From the IMG/VR virus record IMGVR_UViG_3300029319_000571, positions 1 through 22,168 of that record: a stretch of 22,168 nt of DNA. One strand, 5' to 3'. Below, piece after piece: positions 4,731-21,211 of this stretch. This stretch comes from a virus. The first letter of the stretch is position 1, and every line of letters starts with the position of its first letter. The translations under genes and the position numbers were made by a program. The notes beneath the pieces were generated by a model. That model had not been told where the DNA came from. It saw only the letters and a program-made list of their open reading frames with translations, and made no database searches.

Positions 4731-5099
4731 ATGTCTTCATTAGGAATTTCTCTTCCTTTGACTCTCGATAATGCGGGTGGGTTTACTCGTATAAAAACTT
4801 TTAATAGATTAGTCAAACAAAATTTAAAAATGCTTATATTGACCATACCCGGCGAAAGAGTTATGATTCCTGAGTATGGTGTTGGCTTAAAAAGATATTT
4901 ATTTTCAAATTATAATCCATCTATATTTGGAGAAATTCAACAAAAAATATCTGAGCAAGTAGCCATATACCTACCAGCAGTCACTATCAAAGATATACAA
5001 TTTAACGATTCCTCCCCCGATCAAAGTCTATTGTCTATTAGAATCGTATACTCAGTTCCTCAATTAGGAATTCAAGATTATATGCAAGTTACTATTTAA
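4731..5099 (+). CDS. 25: Baseplate wedge protein, T4 gp25-like (GPW/gp25 family)
   Basis: This 122-residue protein is close to the family length (T4 gp25 is 132 residues). In T4, gp25 sits in the inner baseplate next to gp6 and gp53, resembles the sheath-protein fold, and helps initiate sheath assembly. The diagnostic core is at residues 40-58, PGERVMIPEYGVGLKRYLF: the family pattern of a short Glu-Arg turn followed by Pro-x-x-Gly and a hydrophobic-Phe end. The N-terminal segment (LDNAGGFTRI then a Lys/Asn-rich helix) and the C-terminal strands also fit. The first residue of the family's EPR-type motif context differs slightly (GER here). The start at 4731 has a clear ribosome binding site. 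The gp6-like gene follows 14 bases downstream, the expected partner. Confidence 0.93.
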   Translation: MSSLGISLPLTLDNAGGFTRIKTFNRLVKQNLKMLILTIPGERVMIPEYGVGLKRYLFSNYNPSIFGEIQQKISEQVAIYLPAVTIKDIQFNDSSPDQSLLSIRIVYSVPQLGIQDYMQVTI

Positions 5100-5113: not shown

Positions 5114-6910
5114 ATGTCAGATCAGCAAAATAAACGCATACCCATTAAATACACAAGTAGAGAATTTTCTGAAATTAGAAACGATTTACTTGAAATAGTC
5201 GAAAGATATTATCCAAATACCTTTCAAGATTTTAGCGAAGGTTCGTTTGGTTCACTAATGTTGGATGCTGTATCATATGTTGGAGATCAATTATCATTTT
5301 ACTTAGATTACAATGTTAATGAAAGTTTTTTAGATAGCGCTTATCAATATGGAAATATTGTTAGGCATGGTAGAGTTTTGGGTTATAAAAATACTGGTCG
5401 CTCATCTACGTTTGGACAAGTGGCGCTATATGTTCTTGTGCCATCTTCTCCAACATCTATAGGTCCCGATTTGCTATACACTCCAATTCTTCAAAGAGGA
5501 ACAACATTTAGCTCTAAAAATAATAAGTCTTTTATATTAACAGAAAACGTTGATTTTTCAATCAACACTAATCCAAGAGTTGTAGCCAGAGTAAATGATG
5601 AAACTGGAGCCCCCACTCATTATGCTATTAAAGCATATGGAAATGTTGTCTCTGGCATAATGCAACAAGCATCATATGACCTAGGCCCATACGAAAGATT
5701 TCAAAGAATTGTTATTAATGACCCAAATATTGCTGAAATAGTCAAGGTAGTTGATTCGCAAGGAAATGAATATTTTGAGGTTGATTACTTATCACAAGAC
5801 ATTGTTTATAAAGAAATTTCTAATAATAATTATCAAAATGATAATGTGCCATCTATTTTGAAGCCTATGCTGGTGTCAAGAAAATTTACTGTTTTAAGAA
5901 ATAGGCTAAGTACCACAATACAATTTGGAAGCGGAGATCCAACAGCAGACGATGTTGTGGCCGATCCTCAATCTGTAGCTATGGATATATTTGGAAAAAA
6001 TTATACTACTGATACAACGTTTGATCCGACTAGATTATCACTTAATAAAAATTTTGGAATTGTCCCAGCGAACACCACAGTTACTATTGCGTATAGAACA
6101 ATTTCAAACGGAAGTAACAATATTGGAGTCGGAGGTATAAACAAAATTGTAGATGCTAAAATGAATTTTCCAGAATTACAAAAATTATCTGTTACAAAAG
6201 CACAAAACGTAGAGACTTCATTAGAGGTTTTAAATGAAACTCCTATAACAGGAGACACTTCAAATCCAGGAATATATGAAATAAAACAACAAATTTACGA
6301 CACATTTCCGACTCAGAATAGAGCGGTAACTCAATCAGATTATGAAAATATTGCTTTACGAATGCCTGGTAAATTTGGCTCTATTTTGCGCGCTAGTGTT
6401 CAAAGAGATCCAGATTCTATGAAAAGAAATTTAAACATGTATATTTTGGGCGAAGACACTGCAGGAAAATTTGTTAAATGTAATCCAACAATCAAAAACA
6501 ATTTAAAAACATGGTTGAATAATTATAGAATGATTAACGATACAATTGATATTCTTGATCCATATATAATAAATGTTTCAATTTCATTTGTTGTTCAGTC
6601 TGCTTCAAATTCTGATAAACATTTAGTATTTGAAGAATGCCTAACCGCATTAAAACAAAAATTTTCTACAAAATTGTATATTGGGGAACACATTAATATT
6701 GCAGAAATATATAAATTATTAAATCTAGTTCCATCTGTAGTAGATGTAATATCAGTTCAAATTTTACCTAGAACAGGTGCGGAATATTCTTCCAATACAA
6801 TTTTAATTGGAAAAAGCATTTCGCCAGATGGCGGTAAACTTATTTGTCCAAAAAATGCGGTTTTTGAATTTAAATACCCTGATGTAGATTTCAAAGGAAA
6901 AATTAGATAA
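5114..6910 (+). CDS. 6: Baseplate wedge protein, T4 gp6-like / baseplate J-like
   Basis: This is a 598-residue protein (T4 gp6 is 660). In T4, gp6 forms the continuous inner ring of the baseplate, and its rearrangement is coupled to sheath contraction. The N-terminus (YTSREFSEIRNDLLEIVERY) and residues about 40-75, with the GSFGSLMLDAVSYVGDQLSF stretch, are typical of the gp6/J family. A central beta-rich region follows. The J-type signature lies near residues 404-434: AVTQSDYENIALRMPGKFGS then a region leading to RDPD. The C-terminal part (near GEHINIAEIYKLLNLVPSV) matches the family's dimerisation end. The protein pairs with gp25 immediately upstream, as expected. The stop overlaps the next ATG as TAATG. 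No truncation or frameshift is seen. Identification is by recognised motifs and gene order, not by a database search. Confidence 0.93.
   Translation: MSDQQNKRIPIKYTSREFSEIRNDLLEIVERYYPNTFQDFSEGSFGSLMLDAVSYVGDQLSFYLDYNVNESFLDSAYQYGNIVRHGRVLGYKNTGRSSTFGQVALYVLVPSSPTSIGPDLLYTPILQRGTTFSSKNNKSFILTENVDFSINTNPRVVARVNDETGAPTHYAIKAYGNVVSGIMQQASYDLGPYERFQRIVINDPNIAEIVKVVDSQGNEYFEVDYLSQDIVYKEISNNNYQNDNVPSILKPMLVSRKFTVLRNRLSTTIQFGSGDPTADDVVADPQSVAMDIFGKNYTTDTTFDPTRLSLNKNFGIVPANTTVTIAYRTISNGSNNIGVGGINKIVDAKMNFPELQKLSVTKAQNVETSLEVLNETPITGDTSNPGIYEIKQQIYDTFPTQNRAVTQSDYENIALRMPGKFGSILRASVQRDPDSMKRNLNMYILGEDTAGKFVKCNPTIKNNLKTWLNNYRMINDTIDILDPYIINVSISFVVQSASNSDKHLVFEECLTALKQKFSTKLYIGEHINIAEIYKLLNLVPSVVDVISVQILPRTGAEYSSNTILIGKSISPDGGKLICPKNAVFEFKYPDVDFKGKIR
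6894..6898 (+). promoter_or_regulatory. Ribosome binding site for the 683-residue protein, inside the end of the gp6-like gene
   Basis: AAGGA at 6894-6898 lies 11 bases before ATG 6910, a rather long spacing. The stop of the gp6-like gene and this start share one base (TAATG at 6908-6912), so coupling by terminating ribosomes probably contributes. Confidence 0.5.
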
Positions 6911-8961
6911 TGGCTTTAAAACGTTACACAGCAAGCGCTGACACAACGATTGCAAATGCATATCGACCAGATTTATCTACTAGGGCAACCGGCGCCAACA
7001 TGGGCGCGTCTGATGTTTTAGACGTGTTTTCAATCTATGGAAGATATTCAACAAGTTCTGCAGAACTATCCCGCGCTCTAGTTCAGTTTCCGATAACTGA
7101 TATTTCTACAGATCGTACAAGTGATTTAATCCCAGCAAGCGGAAGTGTAAATTTTTATTTACGAATGTTTAACGCATCTCACACAAAAACCGTTCCAAAA
7201 GATGCTAAATATGTTTTTATGATGGTATCTCAATCATGGCAAGAAGGTGTGGGTCTTGATATGGAAAGCTATAAAGATCTTACGCTCGGCAATGAAGGCA
7301 GTAATTGGATGACAGCCTCCAGCGGTGGAAATACTGGGGCACAAGCAACTCTAACAGCATTAAGCAAAACAGCTGGCCAAGCTAACACGAGAGTGTTAAC
7401 AATCTTAGATGCCGATGATAATTCAGTATCTTTTACAATTGATAATACTATTTCGACATCCACAGCAACAAGAATTGCTTTTGCAAACGCAGCAGAAAAC
7501 GCAACACAATTTGCTACAAATATTGCTGCAGCTATTAATGCGGCGGATGATGCTGGTACATTGAATATTACTGCTACCTCTTCTGGCGCCGTTGTAACAT
7601 TAACAATGAATCATGCAACGCTCAATCAACAGAGTACAAACTTTGCAGGCACAGCAATTAGCGATAGTGTAATAACTGCTACTACGCAATTTGGAGCAGC
7701 TACTGTAAATTACTGGTCAGATATATGCGGAACATTACTAGCAGGAGGCTCATATCATACGTACTCTGCCGGCTCCAACAAGCAGGTAGATACACCAATT
7801 TACATCTTTAATCAAACTTTAGCAGACGGAACAGAAGATGTTGAAATTGATATTACTCCATGGGTTGAACAATGGATAGCTGGCACATATTCTAATTATG
7901 GTATTGGAATAATGCTTACCTCTAGTCAAGAAGCGTCAGGAGCCATTGATTACTTGGCTGGAAAAGTTTCTGGCCGCGCAGACGATGACGGCTTGATACA
8001 AAATCCAAGCGGCTCCACAACATCATATTATATTAAAAGATTTTTCGGAAGAAAAAGTCAATATTTTTTCAAAAGGCCATACATTGAAGCACGCTGGGAC
8101 GATACATTAAGAGACGACCGCGGTAATTTTTATTATAGTAGCTCAGTAGCATCACCAGCAGATAACTTAAATACAATTTATTTATACAACTATGTGCGTG
8201 GACAATTAAAAGACATTGTTGGAATTGAAAAAACTGGCTCTGTTATGGTTAGTTTGTTTTCTGGAAATGTTGATGATACCGCCCCAACTGGTTCTAGTGG
8301 TGCGCTTTTAATTAACAGCCAATCAACACCGGGCACAACCGATGGGGCAAATGTTACTTTACAATATTTTGCAACTGGAGGATGGGTTTCTACAGGAATT
8401 TATTCAGCTTCTATAGCTATTACGGCATCTGAGTTAGCTACAGGATTTGATCCAATCTTAACATTATATGATGTGTGGTCAAGTGGAAGCTTAGAAGATG
8501 GAAAACATTTAAAAAGAAGATTTCATACTGGCTCTATAAAACCAATTTTACAAGACAGCTTAAACACTATCCAAACAGAAAGAAATTATTTGGCCATTAC
8601 AAATTTACGCAATAGCTATCGAGCCGATGAAACTGCAAGATTCAATTTATTTGTCAGACAAAAAAATTGGAGCCCCAATATTCACACAAAAGCTATATCA
8701 AAAGTCGAAACAAATACAATCCATAGCGCTTCATATAGAGTTTTTAGAACATTAGATAATTATCGCGCTGTTGATTATGGAACAGGCAGCGATAACCACA
8801 CATACTTATCTTATGACGTGTCTGGTAATTATTTTAATTTTGACATGACATTATTAGAACCTGGGTATGAATATGCATTTGCGTTTTCATTTTATGACAA
8901 TTCTTTATCGTCATGGGTTGAGCAGAATCAGACGTTTAGGTTTAGAGTAGAAAAACTATGA
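6910..8961 (+). CDS. Beta-rich baseplate/tail protein with DNRLRE-like carbohydrate-binding-type domain and an inserted domain
   Basis: The protein has 683 residues. Residues about 5-140 follow the pattern of DNRLRE/CBM96-like beta-sandwiches: a tASADTTI start, a Gly/Asn turn, GASDVLDV, an Arg-x-Leu-Val-Gln-Phe strand, then SQSWQEGVGLDM and a GSNWMTASSG loop. The fold appears to resume at about residue 264 (VNYWSDICG) and ends near 335 with DITPWVEQWIAG. Between these lies a roughly 116-residue insert (146-261) shared with the giant downstream protein. The middle of the protein (FFKRPYIEARWDDTLRDDRG) and the C-terminus (a fibronectin/Ig-like ending with TFRFRVE) are also beta-rich; I recall similar sequences in marine T4-like phages. 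No enzymatic motif is seen. A glycan-contacting or structural baseplate role is inferred. It overlaps both neighbours (TAATG before, ATGA after). Confidence 0.65.
   Translation: MALKRYTASADTTIANAYRPDLSTRATGANMGASDVLDVFSIYGRYSTSSAELSRALVQFPITDISTDRTSDLIPASGSVNFYLRMFNASHTKTVPKDAKYVFMMVSQSWQEGVGLDMESYKDLTLGNEGSNWMTASSGGNTGAQATLTALSKTAGQANTRVLTILDADDNSVSFTIDNTISTSTATRIAFANAAENATQFATNIAAAINAADDAGTLNITATSSGAVVTLTMNHATLNQQSTNFAGTAISDSVITATTQFGAATVNYWSDICGTLLAGGSYHTYSAGSNKQVDTPIYIFNQTLADGTEDVEIDITPWVEQWIAGTYSNYGIGIMLTSSQEASGAIDYLAGKVSGRADDDGLIQNPSGSTTSYYIKRFFGRKSQYFFKRPYIEARWDDTLRDDRGNFYYSSSVASPADNLNTIYLYNYVRGQLKDIVGIEKTGSVMVSLFSGNVDDTAPTGSSGALLINSQSTPGTTDGANVTLQYFATGGWVSTGIYSASIAITASELATGFDPILTLYDVWSSGSLEDGKHLKRRFHTGSIKPILQDSLNTIQTERNYLAITNLRNSYRADETARFNLFVRQKNWSPNIHTKAISKVETNTIHSASYRVFRTLDNYRAVDYGTGSDNHTYLSYDVSGNYFNFDMTLLEPGYEYAFAFSFYDNSLSSWVEQNQTFRFRVEKL
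7345..7692 (+). repeat. Travelling domain, copy 1 (inside the DNRLRE-like domain)
   Basis: Residues 146-261 of the 683-residue protein. It begins ATLTALSKTAGQANTR and ends GTAISDSVITATTQF. Hallmarks are a strand near SVSFTID, a helix near FATNIAAAINAA, then GTLNITA and a VVTLT strand. It aligns with residues 377-491 of the giant protein, with about two-thirds identity over the first 88 residues by eye. Synonymous positions differ widely, so this is not a recent DNA duplication. The flanks (GSNWMTASSG before, VNYWSDICG after) look like a single loop that was split. Confidence 0.85.
8958..8961 (+). promoter_or_regulatory. ATGA stop-start overlap driving the giant gene
   Basis: The start ATG (8958-8960) overlaps the upstream TGA (8959-8961). 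The preceding 20 bases contain only weak AGG/AGAG matches, so translation of this 10.8 kb gene probably depends on re-initiation after the 683-residue protein. Confidence 0.6.
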
Positions 8962-11900
8962 GTATTAAAAAACTTTTTGATGTAGAAAGTTCTAGAAACT
9001 TTTTGTCAGAAAAAAATGAAAAAGAAATTTTTGAAGACGTAGAGTCTGCTAGAAATGTAAAAGCAATTTCTAAAAGACAGCAAGCTTTTATTCCACAAAT
9101 AGATTACACAAAACCTGAAAAATTTGCTCGTTATGGTTCTGCTTATTTGTATTATAAAAGCGCCATTGAATGGATTCATGATTATTATCCTTATGATGGA
9201 TCAGATGCAGAAATAAATGAGTATAGAAATAAACTATTACATATTGAAGAATATATTTTTAATAATTTATATCCTCGTACAAATGGGTTTATTACTTTTG
9301 CAAATCCTCAAGATGGTGGCTGGGGTTCGTTAGATGGCTCTATAACAAATGGTTATGGTCTTCCGGCAACATTAGAATATATCACATTTAAAGGTGGCCC
9401 CGGTACAGGCTCAGCCGCAGATAGTTCATTAACATCTTTGGTGCCAAATCCATATAATGAAAAGATAGAACACTCAAATATTTACGACGAAGACATTTAT
9501 ACAAACGCCGGTCTTCCATCGACATATGGATCTGGATCCCGAGAGTCCAACCTTAAAGCTAATCTTAATACAGGTGTAACAGTAGAGTTTTGGCTTAAGA
9601 CTGGATCTGTTGATACATCTTTAACTGAAAAACAAGTGATTTTTGACTGGTGGAATAATGAAGATACAGATAGCGCTCACTATGGTCGAATACTAATAGA
9701 GTTAACTTCTTCTAAGGATGCAGCAGGTCAGCCAATTTCTCCGTTTGTAGTAACTGCGCAATCCGGCGCTCAAACCAGTAGAGATTTGTATTTACTGGGC
9801 ACCTCATCTCTTCATGAAGGACTTGGAGATTGGAAACATTATGCGTTTAAATTATTTAACACTGGCTCTGGGTTACACACAGAACTATATGTAGACGGAA
9901 ATTTAAGCGATAAAAACTCTAGAGAGCCTTTGTATTCTTTATCTTCTAGCTTTGTTGGTCATATTAATAAAGGCGATGGAACTTTAAAAGAATATAAATC
10001 TCAAGGATCTCTTGAAGGGTGGTGGAGATTAAACGAAAGCTATGCAAGTCAAAATGTGCACGATAGTGCCGGCCAAGCGCCAATGGCTGTATTAACTGCT
10101 TTAAGTAAAACTGCTGGCGAAGCAAATACTAGAAAGCTCAAAATTTATGATGTTGAGGAAAATTATGTTGATTTTACGATTGATAACAGCATAGACACCT
10201 CCACTGCTACTAATATAGCTTTTGGAAACGCCAATTCAGAGGCAACTATATTTGCAACTAATATTGCAGCCGCAGTCAATGCGGCCAATGCAGCCGGTAC
10301 GTTAAACGTTACAGCTGAAGCAACATCGGCAATAGTAATATTAAGAGCAACAACTGTAAGTGAAACAGCTATTTCTAATACATCTGGTACAGCGATTACA
10401 GATAGCGTGGTGACAGCAACGCAACAATGGAGAACCCGCACTGGAAAATTTGATGCCTCCGATAATCGTCCCGCTGTTAATACCTCTACATATCCTTCTA
10501 TCTACGTTCAGGAAGCCGCAGTAAGCAATACTTTTGACGGCGCCGATACGAGAATAAACATTGGTGCCGCAAATCTTTGGGATTCAATTATTGGTAATTC
10601 TGGTCCAAGCAAAAAAATGATGACAATTACCGCATGGGTTAGAAAAACTGGTGATGGCGGAACAAACCAAGGAAAAATTATACAATTTGGAGATACTAAT
10701 AATGGAAGTATTCATATTCGTTCCACTACAAGTGAAGCTTTGTTTTTTCAGGCTGATTTTTCAACAACTAGAGGATCTTGGTTCTCGGCTAATAATGTTT
10801 TTTCATTAAATACGTGGCATCACATTGCGGTAACATATAATGCAAATAATGTAGGTAACGTTCCAAAAATGTATGTGGATGGTACACCTGTATCAGTGAC
10901 TGTTAACACCACACCCGTGGGAAATTATTCTGGCATTAACACTGAAGATTGTTTTGTTGGCGGCGAGTCTGATGGTCGTGAATGGGAAGGTCAATTAGCC
11001 GATGTAGCAGTCTGGAGCACAATACTCTCAGAAGATGAAATAAAAGCAATTTATAATGCACACTTCTATTATAACCTACATTATACATTTGACGAACTTA
11101 ACGACAAAAATGCGATGGGTCGCATCGGAGCGCTTCAAAAAACTCCTACTGGACTTAGCATTACTGCGGGAGCAGGAAAGTTATCAGGCTCACTTGATGA
11201 GTTTAGGTTTTGGAAAGTTGCAAGAACTGCCCGAGAAATTGGTTTAAATTGGTTTGACCAAGTAAGAGGCGGTACAAATACAGATATTTCTAATACGACT
11301 TTAGGTATTTATTATAAATTTAATGAGGGTATAACTGGCGTACCATCGACAGATAGTGTTATTTTAGACTATAGTGGCCGCGTAAGTAATGGTATATGGA
11401 CTGGCTATGGCAGCAATGCCAGAGCAACCGGATCAGCTATTGTGTTATCTAGCGGATCTACGCATACAACTGAATACAAAGATCCAATCATATATTCAAA
11501 CCATCCAGACGTTGTATCTTTAAAAACCGCGCTTCTTGATAGTGGATCTTATCATGATAGGCAAAACAATTCTTCAATTCTTAGCATGCTTCCCTCTTGG
11601 ATTATCGAAGAAGATGAAAGCACGGGAGAAGAATTTTCAAGTGATTTAAGATATATGACACATATAGTTGGTACGTACTTCGACAAACTATATTTACAAA
11701 TCGAATCAGTGCCAAAGTTAAAGCACTATGGATATACAAGCGCATCTTATACCCCGCTTTCTTTATCAAAACACCTGCCTGAATCTATCGGTCTAGTGGC
11801 ACCAGAAATGTTTATTGAGGCAACAATACTAGAAAAATTTCTAAACAAAAATTTAACAGGCTCTTTTGAATCAGACTTAACAGAAACAAAAAATTTAATT

Positions 11901-14900
11901 TATCAAAATCTTTATAATAACGCAACAAATATTTTTAAAAGCAAGGGTACGGAAAAAGCTTTTAGAAACGTGTTTAGGTGTTTTAATTTAGATGAATCTC
12001 TTATGAGATTAAACATGTACGCAGATAACACTGAGTATTTGCTTAAAAATAATTTACAACAAACATTAATTAACAAAAACACAATAAATCTAAATAATAA
12101 AAATAACATTTATGGTGTTGTTTATCAAAAGCAATATACCGGCTCTGCATTTGCGTCTGCTCCAACAGATGTGGTTGCTGGTGATACGATTGGCTTTATT
12201 TCTGGTTCTCATGGTGCCGGTTTTGGAATTTTAACAGATGCTGGGACATATCCACCACCACCAAATGCACCCCTTGGTGGTTCTGGCGCCGGCCATTATA
12301 GAGGTCTTGAAGATCCATATGGATTTACGATGGAAACTGATATTTTGTTTCCAAGCTACTATACCTTTTTAGATAAAATAGAGAGAAATTTTACAACAGG
12401 TTCTTTGTTTGGCATGTACACAGTTGCTACAGGTTCTGCCGCAATTGAATCTGGAGCCGACACAACGTGGATTACAAATCTAGCAGAAGACTCGGGTGGT
12501 GATAATGAATCAGGGCCAGATGTCGCCAACTTCCAAGTTTTTGCGATACGAGATAAACTATATTCAAAAAATATTAGATTTATGTTGTCATCATCTAATG
12601 AAGGTTTAGGTGGATATGTGCCATTTCCAGTGCTAACTAGCAGCACTTATATGGGGGTCTACAATAATAGTAGATGGAGCTTATCAGTAAGACTTGTGCC
12701 AAGCTTAACTAGTTCGTTTGGCGCTGCTGGTATCGTAAGCGGATCAGTTGAATCTTTCAAAGGTGGTCACAACAATTACGACTTGATATTTAGTGGATTT
12801 AATAATGAAAATGGATATCCTCAAAATTCTTTTAAACTGACCGCCTCAATAAACCACTCAGTTGCAACCAATTTTTTAAATGCGGCAAAAAGAGTATACG
12901 CTGGCGCCCGTCGAACTAATATAACTGGTGCTGTATTAGAGCCATCTGACGTTAATATAAATTCAGTAAAATATTGGACAAAGTACATAGAAGATGGAAA
13001 TTTAGAGCAACATGCAAGCGACTTCACTAATCTTGGTGCTTCGGGATCATATCAAAATACATCCCCAAGAGATCTTAATAGTTTTGGTCACGACATACTA
13101 AATTTAAATTCTTTAGCGCTTAGTTGGGATTTTGAAAATGTAACAGGATCAGATAGCAATGGAAACTTTTTTATAACAGATACTAGCTCAGGGTCAGCAG
13201 AAATAAGAGACAATTATGGTTGGGCGGGCAATTACGCCGGCTACCAACATACAGGATATGGATACGGATTTGAAGCATCTTCAACTGAAGTGGTTGATAA
13301 AAAAGCAATTAATTATTTTAAATTTACAAATCCTGAAAAAGTTGTGTCATCTGACATGATTAATATTTTATCTGCTGATGATATTACTTTTGGCGTTGAG
13401 CCTAATCCAGCAAAATATTATTTCACTATTGAGAAAAGCATGCATAACGCCATTTCTGAGGAAATGCTAAAGTTTTTTGCCGGTGTTGTTGATTTCAACA
13501 ACATTGTTGGAGAGCCAGTCAATAGATATAGACAAAATTATAAATCTTTAGAAAAATTAAGACAAGCGTTTTTTAGAAGAGTATCGTCCGTTAAAGATGT
13601 TGAAAAATTTATTGATTATTACAAATGGTTTGATGATTCAATCACGACAATATTGTCACAATTAATTCCTGCATCTGCTGATTTTGAATCAGATTTGTTA
13701 AACGTAGTTGAAAGTCATGTTTTAGAAAGAAACAAATATCAATTTAAATTTCCAACTATAGAATTTAAACAACCAGATCCAGATGTAGCAATGAAAGGCG
13801 CCCGCGAAAATCAATATTCTTGGGCCGAGGGTTCATCTACAATACCAGCCTCGCCTAGGCCAACAAATAAAAATAGATTATATTGGGACGAAAGAGCCGA
13901 GAGATCTTCAATTGAAATATCGTCAAGCCGTTCTACTAACTCTCCTGTAGTAAATGCTAACATAGATGTACAACGAAACATATTTAGAAAAGTCATATAT
14001 TCATCTCCAGCATTAAGTCAAAGTTCACCGCTATCATTCACCTCTGATGGAGCTGCTTATAGTGCTGGTGGTTTTTCAAGCGGAAGTTTTGGAAAACTAT
14101 ATAACATTGAGTTTGGAAACCCAACAAGCAAAGACTCATTTATTAAAGGTGGCGTTAACTTTACCGACAATAAAAATATTGATTTTACCTATAACGCTAT
14201 TAGACCAGCTGGTCCAGTTGAAAATGATGGTCAAACTTTTATTCCACAAAATGTAATTTTAGGATTTGCAAATCATTTTGTTGAACTTCATGAAACACAT
14301 CAATACACAGCTGACAGAACGCCGAGAATGCTTACAAAAAGATATCTTAGTACTCTTCATGGTAGAAACTTTGAACACGATGGAACAGGATATAGTAATG
14401 TAAAATCATCATTTGCATTTCCATTTAACATTATAAGTTCTTCTGTTGTAAGTGGATATAACAAAGTTATAGTTGATAGCGTTACCGGCGGAATTGAAAT
14501 TGTTAACCTCCATCACGATACATATGGAGATTCGTTTGAAGTACCAATGCAGGGCCCATTTACAAATTACGCTGTCGGAGGACATCAATCGAGACATATC
14601 GCAATCAATACGGGGTCTGATGCATGGTACAATAGAGCAGAGGCATGGAAACTTCTGTTTGGAACATGTGTTGGTTACAATGAAAATCATGGCTTAACCG
14701 GTGCAATTGGTATGGTCTCGCCAGACTATCCTTGGCCAGAAGCAAACGAAATTGGCGTGCTGCCATATCCGTTGACTGCTTCACAAAAAGCATGGCTCTA
14801 CAGGGATTTTGTAGCTAAGCGTCCTGTTAATATACGCAATATTCACATGAGAACAGGATCAACTATATTAGGAAATTATCAAAAAAATTATGAAATTGTA

Positions 14901-17900
14901 AGTACCGTTGGCGCAATCAACAATCCAAGAGCTTTTATAGAAGAACAGCCTACATTGCCCGATGCTATTTATCTAGCGCATTCTGGAAGTACGACTAATG
15001 TGCGAACGTTTTTAGATATACGTAGAAATTCTGGAAGTCATTTTAAATTTATCGACGAATATAACGCTGGCTATCTAACAGGCACTGAAAACAAATCTGT
15101 TATAGTATCCAGATTTGCTGCTCCTGGCGGCATAGAAGTTATGGGCCGCGGCTATCTTGATTTTAAATCTTCAGAATTTTCAGTATACAACTCACTGCTG
15201 AATAGAAACTTAACAGTGATTAAACCTTCACAGGGTTCAACCGGATCGCTTTCTGTCGAAATTGGTTCGGGCTCTGCTGGTATAATTGTACAAGACATAC
15301 ATGGTAGAGATTTTGGACTCAGATCGCATCTGTCGCGACATAGTGCAAGATTTGGACGTGATTCGCATATTGTAACTTCATCAGCTGATTTGCCAGGTGC
15401 TCAATATGATCAAGCACCATCGTTTCACAAAATTAATAGAAACAAACTTACAACATTAGAAATAACAAATGAGACAGCCGACACCTATAGTCCAAAAACC
15501 ATAACAACAGCTACGGCATCTAAGTTTGACAACTTTTATGTTCAGCATGCGATTCCTAGATCAGACTTGCAATACTCTTGGTTTACTTCATCTGTCGTAA
15601 TGGATGGTGAAAGATTTTATGCTTACATGCCGGTGCATGGAGAACAGGCAGGCTTACACTCTAGTTCAGCTGACGGGTACGTAGCTTATTTTGATTATGT
15701 TAGCGCAAGCTCTGTGGTGCCTCAGTCTATACAAGGGCTATATCAACCAACGTCAAGAATAAATATTTTAGCTTTTGACTCATTGACAGCTTCGGGAGAC
15801 GCTAACACACTAGGTTTTCCGACAACAATTGATAATGATGAATACTTTAATAAAACAATTGTAGATAAACTTCAAATTGAAAATTTCTTGACAACATCAG
15901 CAGATTATTTTAATGTTTTAATGACAAAGCGTAATGGAAAGTATGGGTGGAATTGGCAAAGATTAAGGATGCAAGATCATCCAATTTTGAGAAACGAACA
16001 TCTTAGCGGTGTAGTTTCAAGAGCCGACATATCAACTAACGCCATAAGCATTTATAATGTGCCTCCTGTTTCAATGAGAGGTCGCCCAGCCTTACTTAAT
16101 TTTAGTTTTAATGACGAAAATATAACATTAAAAATTACTCACAATAATGAAAAAATATATTTCAATGATGTTGAATTTAATGACTTACAAGGTCTTCCAA
16201 ATTTACAAACTGTGACACCTTTAAGCCAAGTGCTGGAATTGACAAACGCCGGCAACTACATGGTTAATTGGGTAATGTATTGTGAAAACATTTTTCCATC
16301 TAAAAGAAATGAATTTGTTTCTTCTTCACGCGAGAGAATAGGATATGATAATAAGTTTTGGAGAGATGATATTGTTGATCGAGTGGCCGTTGGAAACTCA
16401 GTATTAAATTCATTTGGTGTTAGCGTTGTGCCTGTGTCACAAAGTAGTTGGCCATTAGATGCTCAAATAAATTTTTTAACGCGCTCAGGCGTGCCTAACG
16501 TAGGCACAGGCGGCGATGAATTAGCTAATATTAGAGAAGGATCAGCAGGCGAATTACAAAACAATTATTTTCTTGTACATTCGGGCGTTGCACAAAACGA
16601 TCCAAATAGTGAGACTACGTTATCCCCAGGTGCACTATACTCTAGAAAACATATTATTACATCACCTCGTTCAGTCGCATCTCCGACCGGTCCATATATC
16701 GCTGAAACTGGAAGCATAGAAAAAGGCTTAGAGCCATTTAATGTTGGAATTCAAATTGATCCTTTTGGAGGCGAGGCGCTTTGGGAAGCAGGAACGCAAG
16801 CAGGAATAGTAACAATTACTGATGGCGCCACGACTTTCCATGCAACGGCATCTAATCCATGGTTTTCAACATACGATGACTATAAAGAAGATTTATTGCT
16901 AATGGCCAGAGATTTTTCTATCGTGCCAGAATTTAGAATTAGTGAACATGTAGAAGATTATGTTAGGTATGGAATTTCATCAACAGATAAAACAGACACA
17001 TTTGAAATTCCAGGCACCAATATTAATAGTTCGACAAGTTCATTCTACACAGATTATTCTAATTCAGAATTTTTAAATGACTTTTTAAACATTAAAAGCG
17101 AATCTTTGTTAGACGCTACTGAAATAAGATTAGTTTGTAGTGCAGCGATCAGATTCAATCCATATAAAGGTTTTTATCCAGCGCAAAGAACATTGGATTT
17201 AGTTTCACAATTTTCTCGATCGTATGGTGCTGGTTTTGATGCCTCAATCCAACCAAATTCTGCCGCAACTAAAAAATACAATGGTTTTGATTTAATTCAA
17301 AATCGCGGCGGATTGTTGCGTCCATTAATGCAGCCATTGTATTCGCCCGGTATTTTATTCAACTCAATAAAATCTGGCCTTGCAGTGGATTACCCAATTC
17401 TAACTGATAGTACAAAGTTAAGTGCTTCTTATTATGGTAGTACAGACGGCGCCGCAACACACAACTGGGCAATCACTCCTCAAGAACCTCCTGCAAGTAC
17501 AAAATATGGTTATCGCGGCGGTGAATTTTGGGATCAACGAGTGCCATTTGAGGCTATTCTGGCGCCAGAAAAGTATATAGCTGGCGTGCAAATACTTGAT
17601 GTAGAGCCTCACCCTTCGGCTTCATTTAATGCAACAGCATCAATGGGAGCAGCATCAGACGAAATTTATTCTATGATGGCTAGTAACTTTTTTGGAGAAG
17701 TTGGTTCGTTCTTTCTTAAAGATGACTCATATACATCATTAAAATCTGGGGTTGTAACTAATGATTTAAGATTTACATCTGGCAGTGTTTATGGAGCAAG
17801 AATCAAGTTAAGAAGATCTGTCTCAGGCTCGCGCGATTATAGAGGAGATTCAGGTTCTGCAGGAAACAATGTTGCGTATGGCATGGCTGGTGGCTTAGTT

Positions 17901-19721
17901 CACGACGGCACTGGTTTTGGTAAATCTACATTCCCATTACCGCAAGATCCAAAACAAGGTTTATTGTTTAAAGAATCATTTACAATGTATTCTAGACCAA
18001 CTGCTTTCGGACCGTCCGTAGCAGGCCAACCAGACGGCACAGGATCAATAGCCGCAGCAGTTATCAAAACATTTCCAATGGACAGCTTTAACGGCTACAA
18101 CTGGTCTTTCACTCCGCCTTATACAAATGGCGAAGCGTGGTGTGATTTAATCTTCAGACCTGATCCAAATAAGTCATATGATTTAGAACAAATATTATCT
18201 GAGGTTAGCTCTGCGTATTGGCGCGCCGACCCTGGACATGTTGTTAGCAATAAGCCCTGTTTGATATCTTCATTTGAAGATTCCGACTTTACACAGTCTA
18301 CTAACTTTATATATTCAGGGCACAATGTTAATTTAAATGCAATGCAAATTAGTGCTAGTATTAACTTATTTGGAGTCGAAAGAGTTTTACAACAAGAATC
18401 AGATACGTTTGGAAACAAATTAAAAACTACCAATATAACTGCGGGTAAAAAATGGGTTATTCAGCCCAAGTGGGAAACGCCTATGTTAAACTTTAACGAT
18501 AAAGGCATTCATCCTATAACAAATGCTGATGGCAATTTAACATTGCCTACATACGCATCCGGATCAGTTCCAAGAGGCATGTGGCATCAATTCGGTGTTG
18601 TTCCAGAATCGCCCGATAAAGGTATCTTTTTAGAAATTGGCGATATTCCAACTGATTGGTTAAAAAATCATTACGATGTTATAGTAAACGATACAATTTA
18701 TAATAATATGGATGCAGATACCGGAACAAGTGTTTATAAAAAAATGGCATCTTTGACAGATTTAGCAGGATTTGATACATCAACATCTAAAAGGTTAGGA
18801 GAAATATCAGAATCAAGAACAATATCAGAGGCAGTGGTTGCCGTGCCTTATATTGTTGATAGTGTTGAAAACATTTCTGAGGCTGCTGGGGTGTTTAATT
18901 CAACAAGAAAATCTTTTATTAATATTCCTACGTTAAGATATAAAGCTGCATTAGCATCTGCAAAAGGAACTTTAACAGGAGACTCATTAGATGCAGCTGG
19001 TGAATCAATCAGAAAACTTATACAAAAAATGGACAAATATGTTTTACCACCTCAATTTGATTTTTTAAACAATTCACTAGTCGAGCCAATAGTAATGTAC
19101 ATGTTTGAGTTTGAATATAAGCTTGATAAAGACGATTTATCATATATTTGGCAAAATTTATCTCCGAGAGATTCTAAAAAAATTAGTTTTCAATATCAAT
19201 CAGTTGCTCATGAGCTAATGGATACCGAATTATTATCTGAATCAAATATTTTAGATAATGAAAACTTAAGATGGATGGTATTTAAAGTAAAACAAAAATC
19301 ACAAGGACATTATTATAATCATGTTACTCCACAAGTTGGTCAAGCTTCAACTGATATATTTAGTTTTGATGACGATACCACAGGATACAAAATTGGATTC
19401 AATTGGCCTTATGATTATTTATCGTTTGTTGAGCTAATTAAAATGGATGCACAAGTTTTGTTTTCTAGATCACAAACAACCGCTGATCCTGTTAGTGAAA
19501 TAGCACAAGTTCCCAGCAATCAACGCACAAGAACTAGCAATCGTAACACTGAAACAAATATTTCCAACGGACAAACAACAACAAGAACTTCGCGAACTAC
19601 AAATGGCACCACTAATAGGACTAACAGAAATGGTCGCTCTCGCACTAGAGCAAATGGCAACAATCGCTCTGGCAATGGCGGCAGCGGTGGTCGTGGCGGC
19701 GGCGGCATGGGCGGATACTAA
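8958..19721 (+). CDS. Giant virion protein with nested LamG/concanavalin-like domains, probable baseplate or adhesion structure
   Basis: This is an uninterrupted 3587-residue protein filling almost half the window. Residues 8-14 and 27-33 repeat DVES(S/A)RN. Residues about 57-111 carry a Tyr-rich helical motif with YYPYDGS and a PRTNGFITF end. Residues about 209-320 form the first part of a LamG-like fold (VEFWLKTG, WKHYAFKL, ELYVDGNL). Residues about 352-700 form a second LamG-like fold (LEGWWRLNE, AWVRKTG, WHHIAVTY, MYVDG, GQLADVAVW), split by an insert at 377-491. Residues about 710-765 appear to complete the first (GSLDEFRFWK). A helical KSKGTEKAFRNVFRCF region follows, then a possible third concanavalin-like region (about 1123-1400, SVKYWTKY), long beta-rich segments, and a C-terminal Arg/Gly/Asn-rich tail. 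The position after gp6 is where T4 carries gene 7, but homology to gp7 is not established. I recall related giant proteins in marine T4-like phages. The start overlaps the upstream stop (ATGA) and has no strong ribosome binding site. Confidence 0.8.
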   Translation: MSIKKLFDVESSRNFLSEKNEKEIFEDVESARNVKAISKRQQAFIPQIDYTKPEKFARYGSAYLYYKSAIEWIHDYYPYDGSDAEINEYRNKLLHIEEYIFNNLYPRTNGFITFANPQDGGWGSLDGSITNGYGLPATLEYITFKGGPGTGSAADSSLTSLVPNPYNEKIEHSNIYDEDIYTNAGLPSTYGSGSRESNLKANLNTGVTVEFWLKTGSVDTSLTEKQVIFDWWNNEDTDSAHYGRILIELTSSKDAAGQPISPFVVTAQSGAQTSRDLYLLGTSSLHEGLGDWKHYAFKLFNTGSGLHTELYVDGNLSDKNSREPLYSLSSSFVGHINKGDGTLKEYKSQGSLEGWWRLNESYASQNVHDSAGQAPMAVLTALSKTAGEANTRKLKIYDVEENYVDFTIDNSIDTSTATNIAFGNANSEATIFATNIAAAVNAANAAGTLNVTAEATSAIVILRATTVSETAISNTSGTAITDSVVTATQQWRTRTGKFDASDNRPAVNTSTYPSIYVQEAAVSNTFDGADTRINIGAANLWDSIIGNSGPSKKMMTITAWVRKTGDGGTNQGKIIQFGDTNNGSIHIRSTTSEALFFQADFSTTRGSWFSANNVFSLNTWHHIAVTYNANNVGNVPKMYVDGTPVSVTVNTTPVGNYSGINTEDCFVGGESDGREWEGQLADVAVWSTILSEDEIKAIYNAHFYYNLHYTFDELNDKNAMGRIGALQKTPTGLSITAGAGKLSGSLDEFRFWKVARTAREIGLNWFDQVRGGTNTDISNTTLGIYYKFNEGITGVPSTDSVILDYSGRVSNGIWTGYGSNARATGSAIVLSSGSTHTTEYKDPIIYSNHPDVVSLKTALLDSGSYHDRQNNSSILSMLPSWIIEEDESTGEEFSSDLRYMTHIVGTYFDKLYLQIESVPKLKHYGYTSASYTPLSLSKHLPESIGLVAPEMFIEATILEKFLNKNLTGSFESDLTETKNLIYQNLYNNATNIFKSKGTEKAFRNVFRCFNLDESLMRLNMYADNTEYLLKNNLQQTLINKNTINLNNKNNIYGVVYQKQYTGSAFASAPTDVVAGDTIGFISGSHGAGFGILTDAGTYPPPPNAPLGGSGAGHYRGLEDPYGFTMETDILFPSYYTFLDKIERNFTTGSLFGMYTVATGSAAIESGADTTWITNLAEDSGGDNESGPDVANFQVFAIRDKLYSKNIRFMLSSSNEGLGGYVPFPVLTSSTYMGVYNNSRWSLSVRLVPSLTSSFGAAGIVSGSVESFKGGHNNYDLIFSGFNNENGYPQNSFKLTASINHSVATNFLNAAKRVYAGARRTNITGAVLEPSDVNINSVKYWTKYIEDGNLEQHASDFTNLGASGSYQNTSPRDLNSFGHDILNLNSLALSWDFENVTGSDSNGNFFITDTSSGSAEIRDNYGWAGNYAGYQHTGYGYGFEASSTEVVDKKAINYFKFTNPEKVVSSDMINILSADDITFGVEPNPAKYYFTIEKSMHNAISEEMLKFFAGVVDFNNIVGEPVNRYRQNYKSLEKLRQAFFRRVSSVKDVEKFIDYYKWFDDSITTILSQLIPASADFESDLLNVVESHVLERNKYQFKFPTIEFKQPDPDVAMKGARENQYSWAEGSSTIPASPRPTNKNRLYWDERAERSSIEISSSRSTNSPVVNANIDVQRNIFRKVIYSSPALSQSSPLSFTSDGAAYSAGGFSSGSFGKLYNIEFGNPTSKDSFIKGGVNFTDNKNIDFTYNAIRPAGPVENDGQTFIPQNVILGFANHFVELHETHQYTADRTPRMLTKRYLSTLHGRNFEHDGTGYSNVKSSFAFPFNIISSSVVSGYNKVIVDSVTGGIEIVNLHHDTYGDSFEVPMQGPFTNYAVGGHQSRHIAINTGSDAWYNRAEAWKLLFGTCVGYNENHGLTGAIGMVSPDYPWPEANEIGVLPYPLTASQKAWLYRDFVAKRPVNIRNIHMRTGSTILGNYQKNYEIVSTVGAINNPRAFIEEQPTLPDAIYLAHSGSTTNVRTFLDIRRNSGSHFKFIDEYNAGYLTGTENKSVIVSRFAAPGGIEVMGRGYLDFKSSEFSVYNSLLNRNLTVIKPSQGSTGSLSVEIGSGSAGIIVQDIHGRDFGLRSHLSRHSARFGRDSHIVTSSADLPGAQYDQAPSFHKINRNKLTTLEITNETADTYSPKTITTATASKFDNFYVQHAIPRSDLQYSWFTSSVVMDGERFYAYMPVHGEQAGLHSSSADGYVAYFDYVSASSVVPQSIQGLYQPTSRINILAFDSLTASGDANTLGFPTTIDNDEYFNKTIVDKLQIENFLTTSADYFNVLMTKRNGKYGWNWQRLRMQDHPILRNEHLSGVVSRADISTNAISIYNVPPVSMRGRPALLNFSFNDENITLKITHNNEKIYFNDVEFNDLQGLPNLQTVTPLSQVLELTNAGNYMVNWVMYCENIFPSKRNEFVSSSRERIGYDNKFWRDDIVDRVAVGNSVLNSFGVSVVPVSQSSWPLDAQINFLTRSGVPNVGTGGDELANIREGSAGELQNNYFLVHSGVAQNDPNSETTLSPGALYSRKHIITSPRSVASPTGPYIAETGSIEKGLEPFNVGIQIDPFGGEALWEAGTQAGIVTITDGATTFHATASNPWFSTYDDYKEDLLLMARDFSIVPEFRISEHVEDYVRYGISSTDKTDTFEIPGTNINSSTSSFYTDYSNSEFLNDFLNIKSESLLDATEIRLVCSAAIRFNPYKGFYPAQRTLDLVSQFSRSYGAGFDASIQPNSAATKKYNGFDLIQNRGGLLRPLMQPLYSPGILFNSIKSGLAVDYPILTDSTKLSASYYGSTDGAATHNWAITPQEPPASTKYGYRGGEFWDQRVPFEAILAPEKYIAGVQILDVEPHPSASFNATASMGAASDEIYSMMASNFFGEVGSFFLKDDSYTSLKSGVVTNDLRFTSGSVYGARIKLRRSVSGSRDYRGDSGSAGNNVAYGMAGGLVHDGTGFGKSTFPLPQDPKQGLLFKESFTMYSRPTAFGPSVAGQPDGTGSIAAAVIKTFPMDSFNGYNWSFTPPYTNGEAWCDLIFRPDPNKSYDLEQILSEVSSAYWRADPGHVVSNKPCLISSFEDSDFTQSTNFIYSGHNVNLNAMQISASINLFGVERVLQQESDTFGNKLKTTNITAGKKWVIQPKWETPMLNFNDKGIHPITNADGNLTLPTYASGSVPRGMWHQFGVVPESPDKGIFLEIGDIPTDWLKNHYDVIVNDTIYNNMDADTGTSVYKKMASLTDLAGFDTSTSKRLGEISESRTISEAVVAVPYIVDSVENISEAAGVFNSTRKSFINIPTLRYKAALASAKGTLTGDSLDAAGESIRKLIQKMDKYVLPPQFDFLNNSLVEPIVMYMFEFEYKLDKDDLSYIWQNLSPRDSKKISFQYQSVAHELMDTELLSESNILDNENLRWMVFKVKQKSQGHYYNHVTPQVGQASTDIFSFDDDTTGYKIGFNWPYDYLSFVELIKMDAQVLFSRSQTTADPVSEIAQVPSNQRTRTSNRNTETNISNGQTTTRTSRTTNGTTNRTNRNGRSRTRANGNNRSGNGGSGGRGGGGMGGY
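9582..9917 (+). other. LamG-like domain 1, N-terminal part
   Basis: Residues about 209-320 show the LamG/concanavalin strand pattern: VEFWLKTG, a strand near VIFDWW, then DWKHYAFKL and ELYVDGNL. The expected closing strand (Gly-x-hydrophobic-Asp-Glu-x-Arg-hydrophobic-Trp/Tyr) is absent here and appears instead near 11196. This suggests the domain is interrupted. Confidence 0.65.
10011..11060 (+). other. LamG-like domain 2, itself split by the travelling domain
   Basis: Residues about 352-701. The opening LEGWWRLNE then HDSAGQAP is the usual lead-in of Laminin-G-like modules. After the 115-residue insert the fold continues with TFDGADTRINIG, ITAWVRKTG, WHHIAVTY, MYVDGTPV and GQLADVAVWSTILSEDEIKA, a textbook ending for this family. 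Confidence 0.75.
10086..10430 (+). repeat. Travelling domain, copy 2 (inside LamG-like domain 2)
   Basis: Residues 377-491 of the giant protein. It begins AVLTALSKTAGEANTR and ends GTAITDSVVTATQQW. Length (115) and both ends match copy 1 (116). It interrupts the region between HDSAGQAP and TFDGADTRINIG of a LamG-like domain. Confidence 0.85.
11091..11260 (+). other. Apparent C-terminal completion of LamG-like domain 1
   Basis: Residues about 712-767 read ELNDKN, then GALQKTP, then SGSLDEFRFWKVARTAREIG. This is a canonical LamG closing segment that lacks its own opening, because LamG-like domain 2 already has one. Pairing it with 9582-9917 gives one complete fold. Confidence is moderate because structure was not modelled. 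Confidence 0.55.
12324..13150 (+). other. Possible third concanavalin-like region of the giant protein
   Basis: Residues about 1123-1398. It contains FTMETDILFP, a later WSLSVRLVP strand, a LIFSGFN strand, and SVKYWTKYIEDGNL followed by HASDFTNLG. The order of strands and the Trp-containing closing segment resemble a very divergent LamG/concanavalin fold. No catalytic residues are evident. Confidence 0.35.
19521..19718 (+). other. Arg/Asn/Thr/Gly-rich low-complexity C-terminal tail of the giant protein
   Basis: The last 66 residues carry 12 arginines, no lysine and one acidic residue. They start QRTRTSNRNTETN and end GGSGGRGGGGMGGY. The segment follows a folded region ending near VLFSRSQ and is predicted disordered by composition. 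The DNA becomes much more GC-rich than its surroundings at the glycine run. Confidence 0.8.
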
Positions 19722-21211
19722 TGGCTAAATTTTTAAATAAAAAAGAACAAGTATTTGATTTACAATTAACAACCTATGGTAGATATCTTTTGTCAATTGG
19801 AAAGTTTAAACCTTATTGTTATGAATTTTTTGATGATAATATTCTTTATGATGGTCGTTATGCCATGTATACAGGATCAAATGCTCCAGAAAAATCTGTT
19901 TTAGATTTGCAATTGCATGAAAATCAAAATGAAATTTTTCACAGAATTAAAAATGAAACTCAATATCTCGAAAGCTTAGTGCTTTTTTCAGAAGTTGAGA
20001 ACGAAATAGGACAAATTGATACTGACATAGGAGAACAAGAATCAGCAGCATACTCAACGGATGAAACACCAAAAGAAAACAAGCCTTCAAGCGATATTTA
20101 TAGATTTAACGCAGGTATTGGAGATCTTTTGTCTACTGCAGGAAATAGACAAACAGCACCGGCATGGAAAATTGTAATGCTACAAGGTGAGATTTCATCT
20201 TCTGCAGATTCTGAAAATCATTCTAAAAGTATAAAAATACCACAAATTAATATAGAAACAAAATACACAAGAATATCAACAAATGCAACGCCAGCTTTTG
20301 GGCCTGACGATGAAGATGAAAATAGATTTGATCTTAGACAAAGTTTTGGCATGGAAACAGATTTTTTTAGCAACAATAAAGTTGTGAAAATACTTGCCAA
20401 TGATCCAGTAATATATGCTGAAGAGGTAAATACGTTATTGTTAACTGAAAATTTTGACATTGAATTTTTTGAGGTTGATGCTACTGAAGCTACAAACGCA
20501 GTTGCTGAAATGGGTTTTCAAGCAGCAGATAGTGATTTAAACGGAGAAACGTTTACAATCAATGATGGCACTAACTCAGTTACTTTTACATGGACCACCG
20601 GCACTGTCGATAGCAATACAAAGATTAATGCAAGCTATGATGGGGCTTTCGCTTTTTGGGCTATGGCATCAAGAGCGAAGCTAGCGATTGAAAATTATAT
20701 TTCTGGAGGCGGCAGCCTTAATGTTTCTGTATCTCATGAGCTTCACAAGGTAATTATAACCAACACCAATGGGGCGGGTATCTCCACCAATACAATGGGG
20801 GGCCCTTCTCCGGGAACCGCAAGAGTAACCTCTTCAGACGAAGAAAAAATAATCACATCTGGCGGATTTTTTACAGGCGGAAAAGACGCAAACGAGCAAT
20901 TAATTCGAAAATATTTTAAAAAAGAAATTAATCAAATTGTGGATGGCATGATGATTAGTGATTCACCGATGGCAACACCAGAAGAAAAAATTACCACTGG
21001 CAGCGTTGAATATTATTTTGATATTCAATCTGACATGCAAGTTCCAGTTGAAATTGCGTGCAGAGGAGCGCAAGAATTCAATAATCAATCATTCTATGTT
21101 GATTTAGATTTTAATTGCTCTGAATTTGCTGATGAAAACTTTAATAGACCAGCCGCTAAATATTTTGATATTTATGGGCATGTTACGGAGCCAGAAATAT
21201 GTCAAGATTAG
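19721..21211 (+). CDS. Virion-type protein of unknown function carrying a diverged travelling-domain insert
   Basis: The protein has 496 residues. The N-terminus (MAKFLNKKEQVFDLQLTTYG, then IGKFKPYCYEFFDDNILYDG, then a QNEIFHRIKNETQYLE helix) looks strongly conserved in style; I recall similar openings in marine myovirus structural proteins, always without a known function. An acidic linker lies near residues 95-125. Residues about 257-387 look like an insert related to the two repeats upstream, after which the host fold resumes (NEQLIRKYFKKEINQIVDG). The C-terminus is acidic with a beta-rich VEIACRG strand. The start shares one base with the giant gene's stop (TAATG at 19719-19723) and has no clear ribosome binding site, so coupling to the giant gene is likely. 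It could be a chaperone or adaptor for the giant protein, which is inference from adjacency. Confidence 0.75.
   Translation: MAKFLNKKEQVFDLQLTTYGRYLLSIGKFKPYCYEFFDDNILYDGRYAMYTGSNAPEKSVLDLQLHENQNEIFHRIKNETQYLESLVLFSEVENEIGQIDTDIGEQESAAYSTDETPKENKPSSDIYRFNAGIGDLLSTAGNRQTAPAWKIVMLQGEISSSADSENHSKSIKIPQINIETKYTRISTNATPAFGPDDEDENRFDLRQSFGMETDFFSNNKVVKILANDPVIYAEEVNTLLLTENFDIEFFEVDATEATNAVAEMGFQAADSDLNGETFTINDGTNSVTFTWTTGTVDSNTKINASYDGAFAFWAMASRAKLAIENYISGGGSLNVSVSHELHKVIITNTNGAGISTNTMGGPSPGTARVTSSDEEKIITSGGFFTGGKDANEQLIRKYFKKEINQIVDGMMISDSPMATPEEKITTGSVEYYFDIQSDMQVPVEIACRGAQEFNNQSFYVDLDFNCSEFADENFNRPAAKYFDIYGHVTEPEICQD
20489..20881 (+). repeat. Travelling domain, copy 3 (diverged)
   Basis: Residues about 257-387 of the 496-residue protein. 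The pattern NGETFTINDGTNSVTFTW, then an Ala-rich helix ending AIENY, then GSLNVSV and KVIITN with a Gly-rich end follows the same order of strands and helix as copies 1 and 2. Sequence identity is low, so the relation is by pattern. Boundaries are approximate. Confidence 0.5.
21187..21190 (+). promoter_or_regulatory. Ribosome binding site for the right-edge gene
   Basis: GGAG at 21187-21190 sits eight bases before ATG 21199, inside the end of the preceding gene. It supports this start and a 13-base gene overlap. Confidence 0.65.

Follow-up and report, generated by a model that had tools for sequence, protein, structure and literature searches.

Immunoglobulin-like (Ig-like) domains occur in five classes of phage virion protein (tail fibre, baseplate, tail tube, capsid and Hoc) and have been exchanged horizontally among them (Fraser et al. 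2006, as cited in PMC9022992 and PMC9230969). In the cited passages they are thought to aid adsorption or to bind glycans weakly, and the classic tail-tube cases are C-terminal, some of them added by programmed frameshift (PMC9022992; PMC9230969). Domain mosaicism in phage proteins, as presented in the relevant part of Smug et al. 2023 (PMC10684548), reflects recent fragment shuffling that is strongest in receptor-binding proteins. Here, we describe a domain of about 116 residues that lies within two adjacent virion genes, A and B, of a viral DNA of 22,168 bases (the window, which is the entire IMG/VR virus record IMGVR_UViG_3300029319_000571 and probably a genome fragment). It is very probably a promiscuous virion accessory domain, which structural proteins of phages acquire, lose and exchange as a cassette in their surface loops.

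Comparison with known systems

Like the phage Ig-like domains, the insert domain is found in several virion protein classes (A, B, a third gene C, tail sheath and a probable tail tube) and is exchanged horizontally (a transfer between sheath genes L104 and L102 and a swap between L104 and L138). Unlike them, it combines mixed strands with an 18-residue helix, and at every site seen it is internal and in the main frame, with no C-terminal or frameshift addition. Among the Pfam families listed for 26 members there was no match to Ig, Big or FN3, and antibody-type Foldseek matches reached only E 0.68 or worse, with a probability of at most 0.14. The fold test failed, and the insert domain is therefore not a phage Ig-like domain, despite its like distribution and mobility.

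Among solved structures, the closest in fold is the tail sheath of phage Milano (PDB 8fop, 8foy and 8fqc; query TM score 0.47–0.51, E 4e-3, probability 0.99), and the insert domain, like the Milano domain and the additional sheath domains of PMC9230969, also occurs in sheath proteins. Unlike the Milano domain, the narrow family (by which we mean the ~116-residue insert domain, as opposed to a superfamily that includes diverged copies) is also present in A, B, C and tube-like proteins. A profile search of the PDB gave a single match, to the Milano sheath, at a non-significant E of 0.76. Flagellin outer domains are variable surface domains of a polymer subunit. They are weakly alike in Foldseek (4nx9, 9n8h and 9n8g; E 0.03–0.09, TM about 0.4–0.5), but no sequence link to them was found. 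Mosaicism as treated by Smug et al. (PMC10684548) is the same general process of fragment shuffling, but the portion of that text considered here treats fibres, spikes, endolysins and replication proteins; the term 'tail sheath' does not occur in it, and we did not find in it a description of one domain inside sheath, tube-like and LamG loops.

One domain inserted in two adjacent virion genes

The following features of A and B carry the argument.

6910..8961, + strand: gene A, a virion protein of 683 residues with a CBM96/DNRLRE-like N-terminal region (open reading frame), carrier of the insert
7330..7707, + strand: inserted domain in A, residues 141-266 (core 7345-7692 in an earlier, sequence-only reading)
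8958..19721, + strand: gene B, a giant virion protein of 3587 residues (open reading frame; Laminin_G_3)
9570..9911, + strand: outer LamG of B, first part, residues ~205-318 (approximate)
9912..11084, + strand: LamG2 of B, residues ~319-709, within the outer LamG (Pfam Laminin_G_3 at 553-696, E 2.4e-22)
10074..10442, + strand: inserted domain in LamG2 of B, residues ~373-495 (core 10086-10430 in the same reading)
11085..11249, + strand: outer LamG of B, second part, residues ~710-764 (approximate; placed from relatives without LamG2)

The sequence-only reading had proposed an end-to-end match between residues 146-261 of A and 377-491 of B, with about two-thirds identity over the first 88 positions. 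Its gene and segment coordinates and lengths were right, 58 of the 88 positions are identical, and the alignment score lies 25 standard deviations above 1000 shuffles. A longer alignment (A128-265 against B359-495) gives 53% identity with an E of 3.7e-34, identity between the two copies ranges from 53 to 58%, and blastn matches them at 69% over 224 nt. Identity at the first, second and third codon positions is 71, 69 and 38%, so that third positions are saturated, in keeping with the wide divergence claimed for them. The true insert is slightly longer than the proposed core (A 141-266 and B ~373-495).

The two host folds differ, as had been supposed. Disaggr_repeat matches 18 of 39 relatives of A (best E 1.4e-5) and CBM96 matches them weakly, and the best Foldseek matches for A are chondroitin- and alginate-binding carbohydrate-binding modules (CBMs), the first of which is aligned across the insert. 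B matches Laminin_G_3. The insert itself has no Laminin_G_3 or CBM96 match in Pfam, and the host domains are complete without it.

We sought close homologs of A that lack the segment and found them. The main site is empty in 31 of the 52 A-type proteins on the tree (near-duplicates counted), including an 84% identical relative in L003 that is empty at the exact insertion point (NWMSASDS-NYWTD in L003, compared to NWMTASSGG-[insert]-NYWSD in the window). On these alignments, the A insert is a true insertion. Five insertion points are found within A, at window residues ~76, 140, 282, 440 and 459. L008 and L023 hold different inserts at the A site; as single sequences these showed no tie to the domain family by hhalign or hidden Markov model (HMM), and only a resemblance in pattern would place them in the superfamily. 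Two or three superfamily copies per chain are seen in the A-type proteins L087:3576-5912, L090:2612-4831 and L111:2671-4947.

A nested insertion in B

Homologs of B without the insert were likewise found. L023 and L008 keep LamG2 (Laminin_G_3 E 1.5e-24 and 1.3e-24) and lack the insert, which in the window follows the first predicted LamG2 strand (GWWRLNE) and precedes the Pfam-covered core. Relatives of both A and B therefore lack the segment at the same point, and these empty sites suggest that its N- and C-termini are adjacent.

The whole of LamG2 is absent in L001/L049, L047, L016, L010, L021 and L025. Where it is absent, the outer LamG is uninterrupted (a continuous Laminin_G_3 match, E 3.6e-12 in L049 and 4.2e-10 in another such relative), while in the window it is split. 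Because relatives without LamG2 show one unbroken outer LamG, B is, as read from these alignments, doubly nested: the domain lies in LamG2, and LamG2 lies in the outer LamG. The earlier reading had missed this nesting, as well as a copy in C.

The B homologs of L003 and L014 contain a tandem array of similar repeats of ~90-110 residues in another loop of the outer LamG (~residue 255).

L003:7661-13660 and L014:7688-13687: arrays in B homologs (repeat pattern ..TQATTGxxGNTxI..FTGG)

Units of the L003 array match the superfamily HMM (best 2.8e-9), and for L014 units no link to the family was found by hhalign or HMM on single sequences, their likeness being by eye only. In addition, LamG2-like LamG modules occur at other, distant positions of the giant protein in the B homologs of L035, L011 and L018, which suggests that LamG itself has been relocated within it.

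A predicted self-contained fold

AlphaFold2 with 26 family members predicts a fold of strands, one 18-residue helix and a terminal strand (pLDDT, the per-residue confidence, 89.2; pTM, the overall fold confidence, 0.87), and a model of A residues 1-425 (mean pLDDT 75) keeps the same elements in the insert. The domain is predicted with high confidence to fold alone and its family is found in several host proteins, in agreement with the proposal that the segment is self-contained. When the segment alone was compared to the PDB by Foldseek, no match was below 1e-3; besides the weak likeness to the Milano sheath accessory domain, the best matches were podovirus tail proteins and the outer domains of flagellin. 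Against predicted viral proteins, 17 matches fell below 1e-3, including baseplate J-like, major tail and uncharacterised phage proteins, and the modelled fold, unlike the narrow family, seems to be widespread in phages. No obvious pattern of catalytic residues appears in the alignment, where the conserved residues look like core residues.

Hosts and insertion points

The sequence-only reading had supposed that the domain spreads among phage surface proteins, and other virion proteins do contain it. We found 30 narrow-family loci in the viral contigs scanned, plus one in the C homolog L059. The collections scanned are samples, and remote or low-complexity matches may be lost to the filters applied in searching genomes and cultured phages. 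When the hosts were clustered after masking the domain, five groups emerged: A-type proteins, tail sheath, a tube-like protein of ~780 residues, LamG2 of B, and C. Overall, there are about 10 insertion points across these five unrelated virion protein families. Most relatives are empty at each site, and in some the position is occupied by another, remotely related domain. A pattern in which homologs always carry the segment as an integral part was sought and was not found.

The sheath hosts were identified by phrog_23 (E 3.6e-65 and 1.7e-69); the domain occurs at two places in the sheath, and empty relatives include L142 and L144. The ~780-residue host matches a minor tail protein family and Phage_tube_2 (best E 2e-5, below Pfam's curated cut-off), and from these matches it is probably a tail tube protein. 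Its site is empty in 53 of the 59 relatives that have both flanks, among them L186, whose flanks are 84 and 89% identical. At this site, L171:3001-5418 has an unrelated-looking insert of 77 residues. A search for sheath genes detected none in 11 tube-type contigs, of which five are 95-111 kb long, although these contigs may be incomplete; a sheath gene is present in four large A-type contigs. This pattern is consistent with the tube being outermost in sheathless tube-type viruses.

Searching cultured phages by tblastn with the domain, its consensus, the C insert or A gave no match (the low-complexity filter may contribute), and no relatives of A were found in the cultured-phage collection by BLAST. 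The bacterial and archaeal genomes searched gave no confirmed relative of the domain, and Pfam and PHROGs offer no family for it. Scattered Pfam matches on the domain to Ribosomal_L1, QTMAN_N and DUF5643, all at E 0.007 or worse, were rejected as chance.

Movement of the cassette

Two comparisons of sheath genes are the strongest evidence for mobility. L104 and L138 have flanks that are 84-86% identical in amino acids and a domain that is 36% identical, with the break at the domain edges; alike flanks around unlike domains indicate that one superfamily member replaced another. L104 and L102 have domains that are 97% identical, and third positions are 91% identical in the domain compared to 47-65% in the flanks, indicating a recent move of the cassette, separate from its host gene. 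Further replacements of the cassette are found in the tube-like L172 and at the A site in L008 and L023. Using the narrow profile, L138 and L172 score 0.04 and 1.9e-6; their better superfamily-profile values are not independent, since both sequences had already been added to that profile.

Presence and absence at the main A site needs 10 changes on the A host tree, at least seven of which are forced by well-supported branches. Domain copies resemble each other nearly as closely across hosts or sites (mean amino acid identity 60%) as within the same one (67%). On the domain tree, the A copy of the window clusters with those that other viruses carry at the A site, and its B copy pairs with that of L082 (100/99), which bears out the suggestion that the two copies are old or were acquired separately. 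Target-site duplications were looked for at the nucleotide junctions, and nothing clear was found.

A separate observation concerns whole genes. Across gene A, the DNA of the window and that of the L001 contig are 97% identical; identity is 72-74% in the neighbouring gene on either side, and the transition occurs within ~30-60 bases of the start and stop codons of A, a gene-long island indicating gene-sized recombination. A second island, at 14400-15150 in B, is 96-99% identical to the L001 contig, the first half of B being otherwise mostly 70-85% identical.

The copy in C and the gene neighbourhood

Gene order in the window is gp25-like, gp6-like, A, B and C, and the start of B overlaps the stop of A (ATGA).

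4731..5099, + strand: gp25-like baseplate wedge gene (Pfam GPW_gp25, E 1.4e-12)
5114..6910, + strand: gp6-like baseplate wedge gene (phrog_219, E 3.2e-18)
19721..21211, + strand: gene C, 496 residues, the next virion gene after B (open reading frame; homologs in 18 of 23 related contigs)
20483..20890, + strand: third, diverged superfamily copy, in C, residues ~255-390

The segment of C is absent in L054-L058 and L060. It is tied to the A/B family by hhalign (E 2.4e-6, probability 89%) and by the superfamily HMM (4.5e-28, for a profile that itself included the C sequence), and the narrow profile recognises its G003 version (2e-4). Judging from their neighbours, A, B and C would occupy the baseplate/fibre gene position of a contractile-tailed phage. 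The end of B has a low-complexity tail rich in Asn, Gly, Arg and Thr (19520-19718).

Mechanism and alternatives

We propose that a self-contained accessory domain of ~116 residues moves as a cassette among surface loops that, from the host folds and by analogy, would be exposed on the particle. Transfer would occur by recombination during co-infection: homologous recombination in the flanks when one allele replaces another, and illegitimate recombination at a first insertion. The domain may then act as a many-copy, low-affinity adhesin or as an outer stabiliser, altering how the particle sticks to cells or polysaccharides, an effect also proposed for phage Ig-like domains. Adhesion is its most likely role, in our estimate an evenly balanced call.

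Several observations weigh against this proposal. The domain tree partly follows host and site, so that copies have jumped to another host less often than they have been inherited in place. The direction of change is not polarised at single sites, and at some of them loss of an ancestral domain is not separable from gain. Surface exposure and binding are read from host folds and analogy, and the tube assignment is weak, given the sub-threshold Phage_tube_2 match.

The main rival is that the domain is chiefly structural, cementing subunits or stiffening an outer shell with no adhesive role; we regard it as possible, if rather doubtful. Its closest match among solved folds is an accessory region of a tail sheath, additional domains of sheath and tube have been proposed to stabilise tails (PMC9230969; PMC8718954), and the conserved residues are core-like with no obvious catalytic set. 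However, its presence in unrelated hosts with different neighbours, and in several loops per protein, makes a single conserved contact surface unlikely, and the domain is absent at each site in most relatives.

An extension of the cassette proposal, which we consider unlikely, is a domain-cassette system in which interchangeable superfamily members enter, by recombination, fixed acceptor loops in sheath, tube-like, CBM-like and LamG proteins and so re-set the adhesive surface of the whole particle by ~350-bp swaps, possibly via short homology at the edges. On this account the conserved cassette edges are AATAT... at the start and F-x-GG at the end.

Duplication of the domain within the lineage of the window virus, followed by divergence and with no wider mobility, would fit the adjacency of A and B and the presence of both copies in the window and in the related contig L002/L046. 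We tested it by a tree of domain copies and rejected it. The window's A copy is 63-67% identical in amino acids to A and sheath copies of other viruses, compared to 58% to the B copy of the same virus; the two B copies branch deeply and apart from the others (100/99); and L001 has an A copy at 99% amino acid identity, yet none in B. This explanation is thus very improbable.

Slightly less credible again is that the segment is an ancestral, integral part of the host folds that was lost many times. The unpolarised direction of change would permit this, and the A host tree allows multiple losses, but it would have to hold for five unrelated host families and five points in A, for independent recent cassette movement in the sheath, and for tube-like hosts among which few bear the domain and many are empty. 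Finally, exact in-frame presence and absence at many sites spread over hosts would suit a selfish intein- or homing-like element of no benefit to the virus, but this is scarcely tenable for a segment of ~116 residues with a predicted ordinary domain fold, no endonuclease or splicing domain by Pfam, no conserved Cys, His or Asn splice residues at its ends in the alignment, and insertion points without an evident common DNA target.

Significance

Phage virion proteins are known to exchange surface domains horizontally mainly from the example of Ig-like domains, and a second, non-Ig family very probably behaves likewise. It offers natural before-and-after pairs, resolved to the single residue, in proteins of several types, together with the nesting of a domain in a LamG in a LamG, and it supplies a family that annotators can recognise and that both Pfam and PHROGs lack. 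Two questions thereby become testable: which ligands accessory domains bind, and how short cassettes move between otherwise unrelated genes.

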